The position numbers and the translations under genes are program-made. A model generated the notes under the pieces. It did no database searches and was not told where the DNA came from. It worked only from the letters and a program-made list of their open reading frames with translations. A DNA stretch of 60,565 bases, taken from assembly GCA_003223395.1 (NCBI GenBank), contig QHUZ01000023.1:1-60565 (forward strand). The letters are read 5' to 3'. The first letter of the stretch is position 1. The number at the start of each line of letters is the position of its first letter. This document shows positions 4,335-42,964 of the stretch, piece after piece. Origin of the DNA: Gemmatimonadota bacterium. GTDB taxonomy: Bacteria; Gemmatimonadota; Gemmatimonadetes; Gemmatimonadales; GWC2-71-9.

Positions 4335-7300
4335 GTGATCGATTTCCGAAGCGGCCACGAGCCGAAGAGCTCGAGCTTTGACTATATCCAGATCCGGATC
4401 GCCTCACCCGAGGAGATCCGGGGGCCCAAGGACTCCAAGGAGCGCGAGCGCCTGGAGCTCCAGGGGCAGCGCACGTGGTGGTCGTGGGGCGAAGTCACGA
4501 AGCCCGAGACGATCAACTACCGGTCGTTCAAGCCGGAACGGGATGGGCTCTTCTGCGAGCGCATCTTCGGGCCGGTCAAGGACTGGGAGTGCCACTGCGG
4601 GAAGTACAAGCGGATCCGCTATCGCGGCGTGATCTGCGATCGATGCGGCGTCGAGGTGACGCTGTCCAAGGTGCGGCGCGAGCGCATGGGCCACATCGAG
4701 CTCGCGGTGCCCGTGGCGCACATCTGGTTCTTCAAGACGCTGCCGTCGCCGATGGGCAACCTGCTCGACATGACGCTGCGCGATCTCGAGCGCGTCATCT
4801 ACTACACGAATTACGTGGTGATCGAGCCGGGCGAGCAGGAAGTGCAGGAGCGCGAGCTGCTGGATGAGGATCGCTTCCTCGAGCTGCGCAACAAGGCGAA
4901 AACCGAAGGCGACACGGCATTCCGTGCCGACATCGGCGCGCCGGCGATCCGCTCGCTGCTGGAGCGGATCAACGTCGACAAGCTCGCCAACGAGTTGCGC
5001 GACACCGTCGCGAACGAGACGAGCCAGCATCGCAAGAAGCAGATGCTGAAGCGGCTCAAGATCGTGGACGCGATGCGCAACTCCAGCAACGCCGGCGAGC
5101 AGCGCAACGATCCGCGCTGGCTGATTCTCGACGTCGTGCCGGTGATTCCGCCCGACCTGCGGCCGCTGGTGCCGCTCGACGGCGGGCGCTTCGCCACGTC
5201 CGACTTGAACGATCTGTACCGGCGCGTGATCAACCGGAACAACCGGCTGCAGAAGCTGATCCTGCACCGCGCGCCGGAGGTCATTCTGCGCAACGAGAAG
5301 CGCATGCTGCAGGAAGCGGTGGACGCGCTGTTCGACAACGGCCGCCGCTCCAAGGCGATCCGGGGACGCGGCAAGCGGCCCCTCAAGTCGCTGTCCGACA
5401 TGCTGAAGGGCAAGCAGGGCCGGTTCCGCCAGAACCTGCTCGGCAAGCGCGTGGACTACTCGGGCCGTTCGGTGATCGTCGTCGGACCAGAGTTGAAGCT
5501 GCATCAGTGCGGTCTGCCCAAGGCGATGGCGGTCGAGCTGTTCAAGCCTTTCATCATCCACAAGCTGGTGGAGAAGGGCATCGCCGAAACGGTGAAGCGC
5601 GCGAAGAAGATCGTGGAGAAGGAGTCACCGGAAGTGTACGAGATCCTCGAGGAGATCATCGAGGACCATCCGGTACTGCTGAACCGCGCGCCCACGCTGC
5701 ACCGGCTGGGCATCCAGGCGTTCGAGCCCGTGCTCGTCGAGGGCAAGGCGATCCGGATTCACCCGCTCGTCTGCGCCGCGTTCAACGCCGACTTCGACGG
5801 TGACCAGATGGCCGTGCACGTGCCCCTGTCGTTCGAGGCACAGCTCGAATCGCGGCTGCTGATGATTTCGTCCAACAACATCCTGAAGCCGTCCGACGGC
5901 CGGCCGGTGGCGGAGCCCAGCCAGGACATGGTGCTGGGGTGTCACTTCCTCACCAAGGAGCCGGCGGACTTCGAGGCGCAGCTCAAGACGGCGCCGCGCA
6001 TCGGCTCGATGGCGGAGCTCGAGATGGGGCTCGCCGTGAAGCGGCTCGAGCACCATTCGCCGGTGCACATGTGGCACGAGCGCCCGGAATTGCCCGGCCG
6101 CTGGGTCGCCACGACGGCGGGACGCGTGATCTTCAACAGCATCGTCCCGGTGGGATTGCTGCGCGATATGGGCTTCCAGAACAAGGTGATGCGGAAGAAG
6201 GATCTCTCCGAGCTGGTGTTCGAGAGCTATCGCCGCGCGGGGCTCACGTCGACGGTGCAGTTCCTGGACCAGCTGAAGGAGTTCGGGTTCCGCTACGCCA
6301 CGATGGGCGGCGTCTCGATCGGCGTGGCCGACCTCGAGATTCCGGGCGAAAAGTCACCGCTGTTGCACGACGCCGAAGCGCGGGTCGAGCGGTTCCAGCG
6401 CGCGTATTCGACCGGCCAGATCACCTTCGGCGAGCGCTACAACAAGGTGATCGACGCCTGGACGCACGCGAACAACGACATCGCCGAGGCGATGGTCGCG
6501 ACCATGAAGAAGTCGAAGGGCGGCTTCAACCCGGTGTTCATGATGTTCGACTCCGGCAGCCGCGGCTCGCGTGACCAGATCCGGCAGCTCGCCGGGATGC
6601 GCGGCCTGATGGCGAAGCCGCAGAAAAAGCTCACGGGCGGCATCGGCGAAATCATCGAGAGCCCGATCAAGTCGAACTTCCGCGAGGGGCTGTCGGTGCT
6701 CGAATACTTCATCTCGACGCACGGCGCGCGGAAGGGTCTCGCCGACACGGCGCTCAAGACGGCCGACGCGGGTTATCTGACGCGCCGGTTGGTCGACGTC
6801 GCGCAAGACGTGACCATTACCGAAGAGGATTGCGGCACGATCCTGGGCCTCGAGATGTCGGCGCTCAAGGAAGGCGAAGACATCATCGAGCCGTTGCGCG
6901 AGCGCATCGTCGGCTGCGTGGCACTCGAAGAGGTGATGGATCCACACGAGCTTGATGAAGACGGCCGGCCCAAGGTGCTGGTCGAAGCCGGCAAGCTCGT
7001 CATCGAGGAGACCTCGCAGGCCATCGAGGATGCGGGCATCGAGACGGTGAAGATCCGGTCGGTCCTGACGTGCGAGGCGAAGCGCGGCGTGTGCCGGATG
7101 TGCTACGGCCGCAACCTCGCCACGATGGACATGGTGGATCTCGGCGAGGCGGTCGGTATTCTGGCCGCGCAGTCGATCGGCGAGCCGGGCACGCAGCTGA
7201 CCCTGCGGACCTTCCACATCGGCGGCACGGCGGCGCGTATCGCCGAGCAGACGGTGCGGAAGACGAAGGTCGAAGGCGTGATCGAGCATGGTGACCGGCT

Positions 7301-41002: not shown

Positions 41003-41047
41003 CGTCGATAGAAGGCGCCAAGACGCCAAGACGCCAAGACACCTGAG
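41003..41047. repeat. left terminal inverted repeat with three GCCAAGAC units
   Basis: The outer end CGTCGATAGAAG is followed by three tandem GCCAAGAC units and then ACCTGAG. The reverse complement of this block matches 41505-41541 with one unit fewer on the right side. Nothing else codes in this stretch. Confidence 0.82.
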
Positions 41048-41133: not shown

Positions 41134-41491
41134 ATGCTCTTTCGAGACCTGAAAGCCTATCAACACGCGCTGCGCGTTGCCGCGCTGTCGCGTCCACTCA
41201 TCAAGCGACTGCCAACGGTCGAGCATGACCTCGCCGACCAATGGCGGCGTGCCTCCAATAGCATCGCGTTGAATCTGGCCGAAGGCATCACGCGGCTCGA
41301 AGGAGTTCCGGCGGTTCGCCGATATGGCTCGCGGATCGCTGCATGAAGTGGAAGCGATCATCGATCTTGTTCAGCACCTCGGGCTCCTTCAGCCAACCGA
41401 TCTAGAAGAACTGATTGCGGCGCGGGATGAATGTGCCCGAACGGTTTATGGTCTCCTGCGGAAGCTCTCTACGGCCGCGACTACTAGCTAA
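41134..41491 (+). pseudogene. four-helix-bundle protein (S23/23S rRNA IVS family), frameshifted
   Basis: The first frame reads LFRDLKAYQHALRVAALSRP through RRASNSIALNLAEGIT and runs off frame to a stop at 41344-41346. Reading in the next frame from about 41294 gives GSKEFRRFADMARGSLHEVE, then DLVQHLGLLQPTDLEELIAA, and stops at 41489-41491. The two halves join into a normal S23 protein of about 119 residues, including the conserved AEG..GSKEF..GSL.E motif. One extra or two missing bases near 41288-41296 explain it. It may be a true pseudogene or a sequencing error. Function of free-standing S23 proteins is unknown. Confidence 0.85.
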
Positions 41492-41504
41492 TCGCTATCG
41501 ACCG

Positions 41505-41541
41505 CTCAGGCGTCTTGGCGTCTTAGCGTCTTCTATCGACG
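41505..41541. repeat. right terminal inverted repeat with about two units
   Basis: Reads CTCAGG, then GTCTTGGC-type units (one with A for G), and ends CTTCTATCGACG. It is the inverted partner of 41003-41047 and lies 13 nt after the S23 stop codon. Confidence 0.82.
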
Positions 41542-41669
41542 TAGTTCTGTGCCGTGTTTTGCAGTTTTCAGTGCAGAATACAGTACAGTAGTTCACCTAG
41601 GTCGCATCACTCACAGTTGCTGTGACAGCGGTTACAACTGGGCATTGTTTTTGCTTTCGGAATAGACAG

Positions 41670-41756
41670 AACTCTCGAAAAGGGCAAACCGCCGGCGACG
41701 GCGGGGCGCAAAGCAAGGGGTCTCGCGCAAGCGAGATTGCCCAGCTGCCGAGTCCG
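41670..41756 (+). ncRNA. cyclic di-GMP-I (GEMM-I) riboswitch aptamer
   Basis: The segment contains AGGGCAAACC, a 6-bp stem CCGCCG/CGGCGG closed by a GCGA tetraloop, then CGCAAAGC: the core GEMM-I arrangement. A second hairpin TCTCGC-GCAA-GCGAGA follows, flanked by GGGG and TGCCC, and the 3' strand GCTGCCGAG closes the first stem region (ACTC at 41671-41674 can pair with GAGT at 41750-41753). The conserved G that distinguishes c-di-GMP from cGAMP variants is kept as G by eye. Downstream are a large hairpin and a terminator-like stem before glycerate kinase. Ligand specificity is inferred from the family. Confidence 0.85.
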
Positions 41757-41835
41757 TAGCGCCGCCCGATTTGCGAGAAGGAGTTCGCTTCGCTCACATC
41801 GGGTTCTAGGGCGCACGGTGTGCGGCAAGCGATCA

Positions 41836-41867
41836 CCCCCTGGGGAAACTCAGGGGGTTTCTCGTTT
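41836..41867 (+). terminator. terminator-like hairpin in the riboswitch expression platform
   Basis: Stem CCCCCTG (41836-41842) with CAGGGGG (41851-41857), 8-nt loop, followed by TTTCTCGTTT. It ends 17 nt before the glycerate kinase start. Upstream, a bigger hairpin (CCCGAT near 41764 with ATCGGG near 41804) sits between aptamer and terminator. CGGCA at 41823-41827 could pair with TGCCG of the aptamer 3' strand (41746-41750), a possible switching helix. Confidence 0.6.
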
Positions 41868-41871
41868 CCAC

Positions 41872-41877
41872 TATCTT
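41872..41877 (+). promoter_or_regulatory. TATCTT hexamer 7 nt before glycerate kinase start (possible leaderless promoter)
   Basis: TATCTT lies at -13 to -8 relative to the GTG at 41885, where a -10 box would sit if transcription began at or next to the start codon. No Shine-Dalgarno sequence is visible. If real, this promoter would bypass the riboswitch terminator just upstream. No good -35 is seen. Confidence 0.35.
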
Positions 41878-41884
41878 GCCGTCA

Positions 41885-42964
41885 GTGGCCCCCGTCATCC
41901 TCATTGCGCCGGCAGCCTTCAAGGGCACGCTCGGTCCACGCCAAGTGGCCGAAGCGCTCGCGACCGGCGTGCGCCGCGCCGTCCCCGGCGCGTCGGTCCT
42001 CGAATGCCCGGTCGCCGACGGTGGTAACGGTCTGCTCGATGTGGTCCTGCCGGCGGGCGCGTTGCGGGAGCGGCTCGCGGTCACCGGCCCGATCGGCGAT
42101 TCGGTGTCAGCCGAAATGGGCTGGATCGACGGCGAGACGGCCATCATCGAGAGCGCATCGGCCTGCGGCCTGGCGCTGGTCGAGCCGGAAGACCGCGATC
42201 CGATGCGCACCACGACGCGCGGCGTTGGCGAACTGATCTGGACCGCGGCCGACCGTGGCGCCAAGACGATTGTCGTCGGCCTCGGCGGCACCGCGACGGT
42301 GGATGGGGGCACGGGCGCCGCGCGCGGGTTCGGCTGGACGTTCGAGAACGCGACCGGCGAACAGCTGCCGGATGGCGGCGGGTCGCTGACCGATCTGGCC
42401 TCCTTCAGATCAGGGTGGGGCCTCGGCGCGCGTGTCGTGGCACTGGCCGACGTCGCGACGCCGTTGCTTGGGCTCAATGGGGCCGCGCCCGTATTCGGGC
42501 CGCAAAAGGGGGCTCGTCCCGAGGAAATTCCACAGCTCGCGGCCGGCCTCGCGCGCCTGGCGGAGCTGTGGGCCCAGGCCGGCCGGGCCGAGCTCGGGAC
42601 GATGCCGATGGGCGGTGCCGCGGGCGGGTTGGGCGCGGGTCTCGTGTTTTTCGCCAAAGCGGAACTGACGGGCGGTGCCAACTGGGTGCTCGAGCGCGCC
42701 GGTTTCGACGCGGCCCTGGCGAAGGCGGACCTCGTCATCACCGCCGAGGGAATCTTCGACAAGACGTCGCTGGTCGGCAAAGCGCCGGGAGAAGTCGTCC
42801 GGCGGGCCCAGGTTGCGAGGAAGAAGGTCGCCGTCATCGCTGGAAAGGTAGAGGGGCTGATCGGCGTCCATACAGTGGGCGGAGATAGTGACGGGCGGAT
42901 GCTGGATGGGACTGCGCTCGCCCGGATGGCGGAGCAGGTCGCGCGTGAGGCCCTGCGTTTGTAA
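41885..42964 (+). CDS. glycerate kinase (GarK/GlxK family)
   Basis: Phosphorylates D-glycerate with ATP, feeding glyoxylate, serine or sugar-acid breakdown into glycolysis. 359 residues from the GTG at 41885; a TTG at 41876 is an alternative. Family features are ILIAPAAFKGTLGPRQVAEA, CPVADGGNGLLDVV, VGLGGTATVDGGTGAARGFG and GGAAGGLGAGL, with AEGIFDKTSLVGKAPGEV near the C-terminus. It follows a c-di-GMP riboswitch, which is unusual for this gene, and is 13 nt upstream of glyS. Confidence 0.93.
   Translation: MAPVILIAPAAFKGTLGPRQVAEALATGVRRAVPGASVLECPVADGGNGLLDVVLPAGALRERLAVTGPIGDSVSAEMGWIDGETAIIESASACGLALVEPEDRDPMRTTTRGVGELIWTAADRGAKTIVVGLGGTATVDGGTGAARGFGWTFENATGEQLPDGGGSLTDLASFRSGWGLGARVVALADVATPLLGLNGAAPVFGPQKGARPEEIPQLAAGLARLAELWAQAGRAELGTMPMGGAAGGLGAGLVFFAKAELTGGANWVLERAGFDAALAKADLVITAEGIFDKTSLVGKAPGEVVRRAQVARKKVAVIAGKVEGLIGVHTVGGDSDGRMLDGTALARMAEQVAREALRL

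Follow-up and report, generated by a model that had tools for sequence, protein, structure and literature searches.

A c-di-GMP-I riboswitch beside glycerate kinase in a Gemmatimonadota genome is probably part of a free-standing small-RNA gene

Results

Organization of the locus

The window analysed in this study is a stretch of 60,565 nucleotides of a Gemmatimonadota bacterium (contig QHUZ01000023.1). The features relevant to the riboswitch and its neighbours are the following.

41560-41575, + strand: inverted repeat TGCA-N8-TGCA, lying 81 bp upstream of the -24 GG; candidate site of an enhancer protein
41622-41635, + strand: GTGAC-N5-TTAC box, just upstream of the promoter
41641-41654, + strand: sigma54-like -24/-12 promoter GGCATTGTTTTTGC, predicted transcription start near 41667
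41672-41685, + strand: 5' strand of P1 together with the core GGGC of the aptamer; may pair alternatively with 41764-41778
41674-41753, + strand: c-di-GMP-I riboswitch aptamer (G20 = 41683, A47 = 41710, C92 = 41748)
41681-41685, 41707-41714 and 41744-41749, + strand: aptamer pocket segments AGGGC, CGCAAAGC and GCUGCC
41750-41784, + strand: linker, with the anti-core strand CCGUAGCGCCGCCCGAU (41754-41770) and the antisequestor GCCCGAUUUGCGAGA (41764-41778)
41785-41832, + strand: conserved core hairpin; its apical loop of 14 nt (41802-41815), GGUUCUAGGGCGCA, is invariant
41836-41867, + strand: intrinsic terminator of the small RNA, with compensating stem changes and a T-rich tail at all loci
41885-42961, + strand: glycerate kinase (GK) gene (PF02595, E 7.7e-99; also TIGR00045), probably not the regulated gene
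42978: glyS (glycyl-tRNA synthetase), after GK

The terminator-like stem which the initial annotation had placed shortly before GK was recovered: it reads CCCCCUGGGGAAACUCAGGGGG (41836-41857) and is followed by a U-rich tail (41858-41867). About 18 nt separate the end of the stem from the first TTG in the GK frame (41876), and 27 nt separate it from the GTG (41885) that is the likely start. The S23 element reported upstream is also real, being a four-helix-bundle fragment (TIGR02436, 8.8e-7), and it is a local neighbour lying outside the conserved cassette. This fragment, at 41134-41490, looks frameshifted, and on its two sides a sequence of the GACGCCAAGACGCC type stands in inverted copies (about 41012-41044 and 41504-41536); the fragment may be a small insertion lying between the cassette and purA.

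Identity of the aptamer and its binding pocket

The aptamer was found to match two Rfam families, RF03167 (c-di-GMP-I-GGC) with 64.6 bits against a gathering score of 59 (E 5.5e-13 over the whole window) and RF01051 (c-di-GMP-I) with 68.4 bits against a cut-off of 35. The covariance-model search, which had been proposed as a check on the GEMM-I aptamer claimed at this place, was significant and above both gathering cut-offs, and the GNRA-capped stem and the CGCAAAGC segment were both found. The fold of the leader also beats 200 of 200 dinucleotide shuffles (z -4.0).

RF03167 ranks first by E-value, yet RF01051 gives more bits for this aptamer. In Vc2, the ligand contacts of the c-di-GMP-I riboswitch are G20, A47 and C92 (PMC4744006), and with the numbering set by comparison with Vc2 all three canonical contacts were found in the window aptamer. 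At the A47 position the RF03167 consensus, CGCGAAgC, has G by our own reading of the model, whereas the window has CGCAAAGC in the alignment to it. Because the pocket contacts are canonical, and A47 stands where the RF03167 consensus has G, the RF03167 label looks like a matter of scoring. Judged by its sequence, the aptamer is a genuine canonical c-di-GMP-I riboswitch with predicted ligand binding.

Synteny and orientation of the cassette

The relatives nearest to the window genome are uncultured soil Gemmatimonadetes, and among the genomes compared there are several metagenome bins that are incomplete. Genera and families are labelled as in the search tool (g1, f1 and so on), g1 being the genus of the window. 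The aptamer adjoins GK in all eight genomes of this genus that have a GK orthologue, and the intergenic alignment of the genus has shown that conservation continues past the aptamer for about 100 nt, up to the terminator. The cassette lies on the GK strand in seven of these eight congeners. The exception is G004, in which the intergenic alignment shows the block turned around as a whole, together with its promoter, between the same pair of genes.

When the block was used as a query, 18 further genomes were recovered at the first pass, each with a single copy, which always stands beside purA if that gene is in view. In all genera except that of the window, the cassette opposes the strand of purA and GK. 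Orientation relative to purA and GK is thereby opposite in 21 of 28 loci and the same in seven, all seven of one genus. The 21 opposite-pointing cassettes have no sense gene downstream, and in the longer loci (L131-L139) all the identified genes for about 6 kb downstream of the block are on the opposite strand. On this comparison, GK has evidently come to stand downstream of the cassette through a local inversion, since the same-strand loci are confined to one genus and the other 21 are opposite.

The initial annotation had described an aptamer and terminator in front of GK, had taken GK as the regulated gene and had suggested synteny as a check. The adjacency holds in 8/8 congeners with GK; the regulatory assignment is not supported, since in G004 and in all other genera the cassette is on the opposite strand. 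The cassette does not keep a fixed place ahead of one gene on that gene's strand, as a metabolic cis-riboswitch would, and both GK and glyS were rejected as targets on the orientation of the cassette across genera. The suggested control of glycerate metabolism was likewise not supported, as aptamer and terminator are separated by a structured RNA that is conserved, not by a plain leader.

Where any gene lies between, it is ypdA (TIGR04018, 1.4e-122), which is convergent and whose last codons overlap the terminator; five other genera have it beside the cassette, and the window lacks it. It was considered as a former target and rejected, being on the opposite strand and convergent, not downstream. 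In L131, L134 and L136-L140 the 3' end of ypdA overlaps the small-RNA terminator hairpin, and hence one hairpin may be shared as terminator by convergent ypdA and the small RNA.

Conservation of the core hairpin and terminator

A model of the 3' domain (R1) was built from 18 sequences and searched in 395 genomes of the phylum. Positive results were obtained in 28 of them, comprising 27 in the family of the window and one marginal match outside it (E 7.8e-4, 29 bits); G001 had not been drawn in this sample, and its addition gives 28 family members. Over 26 distinct sequences, 99.2% of the pair cells of core and terminator are standard in an alignment fitted to the structure, which favours pairing figures, as compared to 41-50% in slid controls. 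Changes on both sides were observed in 14 of the 23 pairs, and none of 500 shuffles reached either the observed fraction of standard pairs or the number of both-side changes. Helices almost identical to these were predicted by RNAalifold from alignment A2, which had not been fitted.

The apical loop GGUUCUAGGGCGCA has no variation in any locus. This invariance is to be read as selection, because the four-fold sites of purA are only 39-55% identical to the window, even within the genus. Beyond the aptamer, the Rfam search for the core family returned only chance-level matches (E 2.9 and above), and the core was found neither at the other c-di-GMP-I riboswitch loci examined nor in viral contigs. 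In ten genomes of the genus, an 11-nt complement of the loop was found at just two places outside the cassettes, less often than the reversed control pattern. This scarcity outside the cassettes speaks against long antisense pairing of the loop with one conserved mRNA, and that candidate was rejected; short-seed pairing or protein binding remain as the modes for the core.

In G034 and G259 the aptamer has been lost, and the repeat, promoter, core and terminator are kept. Rfam finds no aptamer before the core in genus g6 (G014 and G074), and the coupling of the core to c-di-GMP is therefore not universal. At locus L169 (G074), AAGGGCAGACCGTCC stands directly before the aptamer-less core and looks like the scar of a deleted aptamer.

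Promoter and upstream elements

The GG-N10-GC pattern at -24/-12 is kept in 22 of the 23 aptamer loci and in two aptamer-less loci of g26, and RpoN is encoded in the genome (E 3.1e-63), the two features looked for in a sigma54 promoter. A start placed 12 nt after the pattern falls 13-18 nt before A18 in 22 of the 23 aptamer loci; the remaining locus (g46) has a poor sigma54-like match (GGGACTTAAGTTGC). Further upstream, [CT]GC[AG]-N8-[CT]GC[AG] was observed at 78-81 bp from the -24 GG in 19 of 25 loci, including two without aptamer, and the same pattern occurs anywhere in only 4% of shuffled upstream regions. The enhancer-binding proteins of sigma54 usually sit at about such a distance, and the repeat at its fixed spacing is suggestive of a site for such a protein. 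At many loci, though not at all of them, the GTGAC-N5-TTAC box is found again, 19-28 bp ahead of the -24 GG.

Linker and predicted switching

Two kinds of expression platform were found in the linker. Eleven of the 23 loci (g16, g26, g56, g57 and g46) carry a premature terminator, T1, which consists of a GC-rich hairpin of -16 to -25 kcal/mol and a T-rich tail. In g1, g11 and g20 there is no T1, and the linker has complementarity to the core hairpin, loop included (-21 to -30 kcal/mol). An intrinsic terminator was searched for in the window linker and not found; it has the anti-core strand instead, CCGUAGCGCCGCCCGAU being complementary to the invariant loop region. The linker-core duplex of the window reaches -26.5 kcal/mol (shuffle p 0.07); the corresponding p is 0.002-0.006 in G019, G028, G004 and G006 and 0.06-0.26 in the other members of g1.

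In both kinds of platform, the 5' strand of the aptamer, including the GGGC which bears G20, is predicted to be able to pair with the linker; this duplex has -14.5 kcal/mol in the window. Cognate 5'-strand and linker pairs were compared with swapped ones by permutation, giving p 5e-5 for all loci (a value inflated by their relatedness), 0.023 with one locus per genus and 0.033 within g1. The test was not significant within the T1 genera alone (p 0.28), and mostly not significant for single members of g1.

When transcripts ending at the linker end were folded, the probability that G20 pairs with the linker was at least 0.84 in 21 of the 23 loci and 1.00 in the window. With the aptamer forced, T1 formed with probability 1.00 at each of the eleven T1 loci (0.00-1.00 with the aptamer left free), and the probability of the core was lowered or unchanged in all loci and never raised. 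This effect arises partly by construction, since a forced aptamer leaves no strand to compete; what is not trivial is the existence and retention of such a strand. In the window copy, the core is masked at equilibrium with the aptamer forced or free. Owing to this, the window switch would have to be kinetic, and the off-switch claim for this copy rests on the relatives and on co-transcriptional folding. The folding models and the pairing comparison, both of them predictions, point in the same direction, and with the relatives taken into account c-di-GMP most likely turns the core RNA off.

Discussion

Proposed mechanism

Our study, which consists of sequence comparison and folding, suggests that the locus is probably a free-standing, sigma54-dependent and c-di-GMP-repressed small-RNA gene of about 200 nt (41667-41867), and not a leader of GK. 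The unit itself, its independence from GK, the structure of the core and the promoter pattern are supported by comparison among the genomes. A noncoding domain after the aptamer, with its own terminator and no gene in cis, is the arrangement of the Rli55/EutX kind, and it was found here.

The direction of the switch, the action in trans and the use of sigma54 are predictions, and the mechanism would run as follows. Transcription from the sigma54 promoter would begin just before the aptamer, and its activator would probably be an enhancer-binding protein bound to the repeat that lies about 80 bp further upstream. After the aptamer would come the linker, the conserved hairpin whose invariant 14-nt loop is the putative working part, and the intrinsic terminator. 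When c-di-GMP is absent, the 5' strand of the aptamer would pair with the linker, blocking the premature terminator in g16, g26, g56, g57 and g46 and preventing the masking of the core loop in g1 (the genus of the window), g11 and g20; with the linker held in this manner, the core RNA would be made and active. When c-di-GMP is bound, the aptamer would retain its 5' strand and the freed linker would cause the core to be terminated or masked. The core may then act in trans, most likely through binding of a protein or an RNA by its apical loop.

Alternative explanations

The same small-RNA gene might instead be switched on by c-di-GMP, which we consider unlikely. The equilibrium folds are crowded with alternatives, and by inspection a short anti-aptamer hairpin can be drawn after the aptamer (for example GCUGC/GUAGC in the window), and these leave some room for an on-switch. 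Against it speak the folding, in which the forced aptamer never raised the probability of the core and brought T1 to 1.00 in eleven of eleven T1 loci, and the use of the ligand-contacting GGGC segment in the alternative helix.

Regulation of GK, and with it glyS, in cis through the terminator at 41836-41867 is an improbable reading. The opposite strand of the cassette in G004 and in all other genera argues against it, and it gives no role to the conserved core, which persists where GK is not downstream. In its favour are the shared strand and proximity to GK in seven of the eight GK-holding genomes of the genus, the short distance of 18-27 nt from the window terminator, which may allow readthrough into GK, and the possibility that after the inversion GK may lack another promoter nearby.

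A highly expressed RNA which buffers the messenger, with the core not an effector, would agree with the stand-alone c-di-GMP-I aptamer RNA without downstream gene that is the merRNA of Bdellovibrio (PMC3627812). Such a sink is quite improbable here: the 3' hairpin is the most conserved part, the core occurs without detectable aptamer in G034, G259, G014 and G074, and a conserved linker with a terminator or masking strand would be needless for a sink.

Regulation of a short open reading frame within the core region is very improbable. An AUG or GUG after an AGGG stretch can be seen inside the core in most genera; the frame however continues into the terminator, lacks a stop codon that is conserved, and in G074 ends after a few codons, and the sequence changes follow base pairing. 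A peptide from the core was rejected on the missing conserved stop and because pairing accounts for the changes. The orphan remnant which the initial annotation had offered as its alternative, a decaying aptamer left after loss of a target gene, is hardly credible: ypdA does adjoin the cassette in five other genera and is missing in the window, but conservation is strong throughout, in the aptamer, promoter, 3' hairpin and terminator, and exceeds neutral expectation in the promoter, aptamer and core.

Comparison with known systems

The window RNA shares with the c-di-GMP-I riboswitches (RF01051/RF03167) the aptamer fold and the contacts G20, A47 and C92, and, in several of the genera studied here, a terminator expression platform. 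It differs in that the regulated unit would be a noncoding RNA and not an mRNA. The Bdellovibrio merRNA is a free-standing c-di-GMP riboswitch RNA of 445 nt, confined to Bdellovibrio and proposed as a store of c-di-GMP (PMC3627812). Both are stand-alone c-di-GMP riboswitch RNAs with no conserved downstream gene, whereas a separate conserved 3' domain, a sigma54 promoter or an expression platform is not described for merRNA in the accessible part of the source (PMC3627812).

Rli55 of Listeria and EutX of Enterococcus are vitamin B12 sensors that sequester the protein EutV (PMC8383071). In these a riboswitch decides the availability of a trans-acting noncoding RNA domain (PMC8383071), as is predicted here, whereas the window RNA has a c-di-GMP aptamer and another core. 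The SAM riboswitch RNAs SreA and SreB of Listeria likewise combine a riboswitch with a role in trans (PMC8383071), which is again a prediction for the window RNA; there, however, the terminated riboswitch itself is the small RNA and also serves its downstream gene (PMC8383071). By analogy, the window RNA resembles Rli55/EutX in design and merRNA in ligand.

In the literature search, no published c-di-GMP riboswitch controlling a noncoding RNA with a separate effector domain was found. The cassettes could well represent a new family of trans-acting small RNAs of Gemmatimonadota, in which a c-di-GMP riboswitch gates a sigma54-transcribed effector hairpin by termination or by masking, depending on the genus, and which would be the first small RNA gated by c-di-GMP to have a separate effector domain. 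If true, the lifestyle messenger c-di-GMP would be linked to a sigma54-dependent small RNA in a little-studied phylum, and one more case would join the few known in which riboswitches control noncoding RNAs. The family also offers natural experiments in its two kinds of expression platform, the loss of the aptamer with the core kept, and the local inversion, which shows which neighbour is not the target. The next gene alone can mislead on the target of a riboswitch, and the appearance of this aptamer as a GK leader would be due solely to the inversion.

Other c-di-GMP riboswitches of the group

The genome of the window (G000, 3.4 Mb) has three c-di-GMP-I aptamers. The other two precede lipoprotein-like genes with Ig-like repeats, which are a usual kind of c-di-GMP target. 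Most of the other aptamers examined across the order lie 5-65 nt before a start codon, often that of a secreted Ig-like protein, a subtilase or a STAS protein (families assigned mostly by inspection). The window aptamer differs from these other aptamers of the order.

In the other two aptamers of the same genome (L002 on C104 and L003 on C60), CGCAGAGC replaces CGCAAAGC beside the ligand site. Tandem c-di-GMP-I aptamers, two or three in a row, were observed in G002 (C36 at 1984-2386 and C3 at 4760-5162; L085 and L086) and in G028 (C176, C246 and C1). In related genomes, c-di-GMP-I aptamers at L031, L032 and L014 stand directly before genes that by inspection are STAS-like (anti-sigma antagonist-like).
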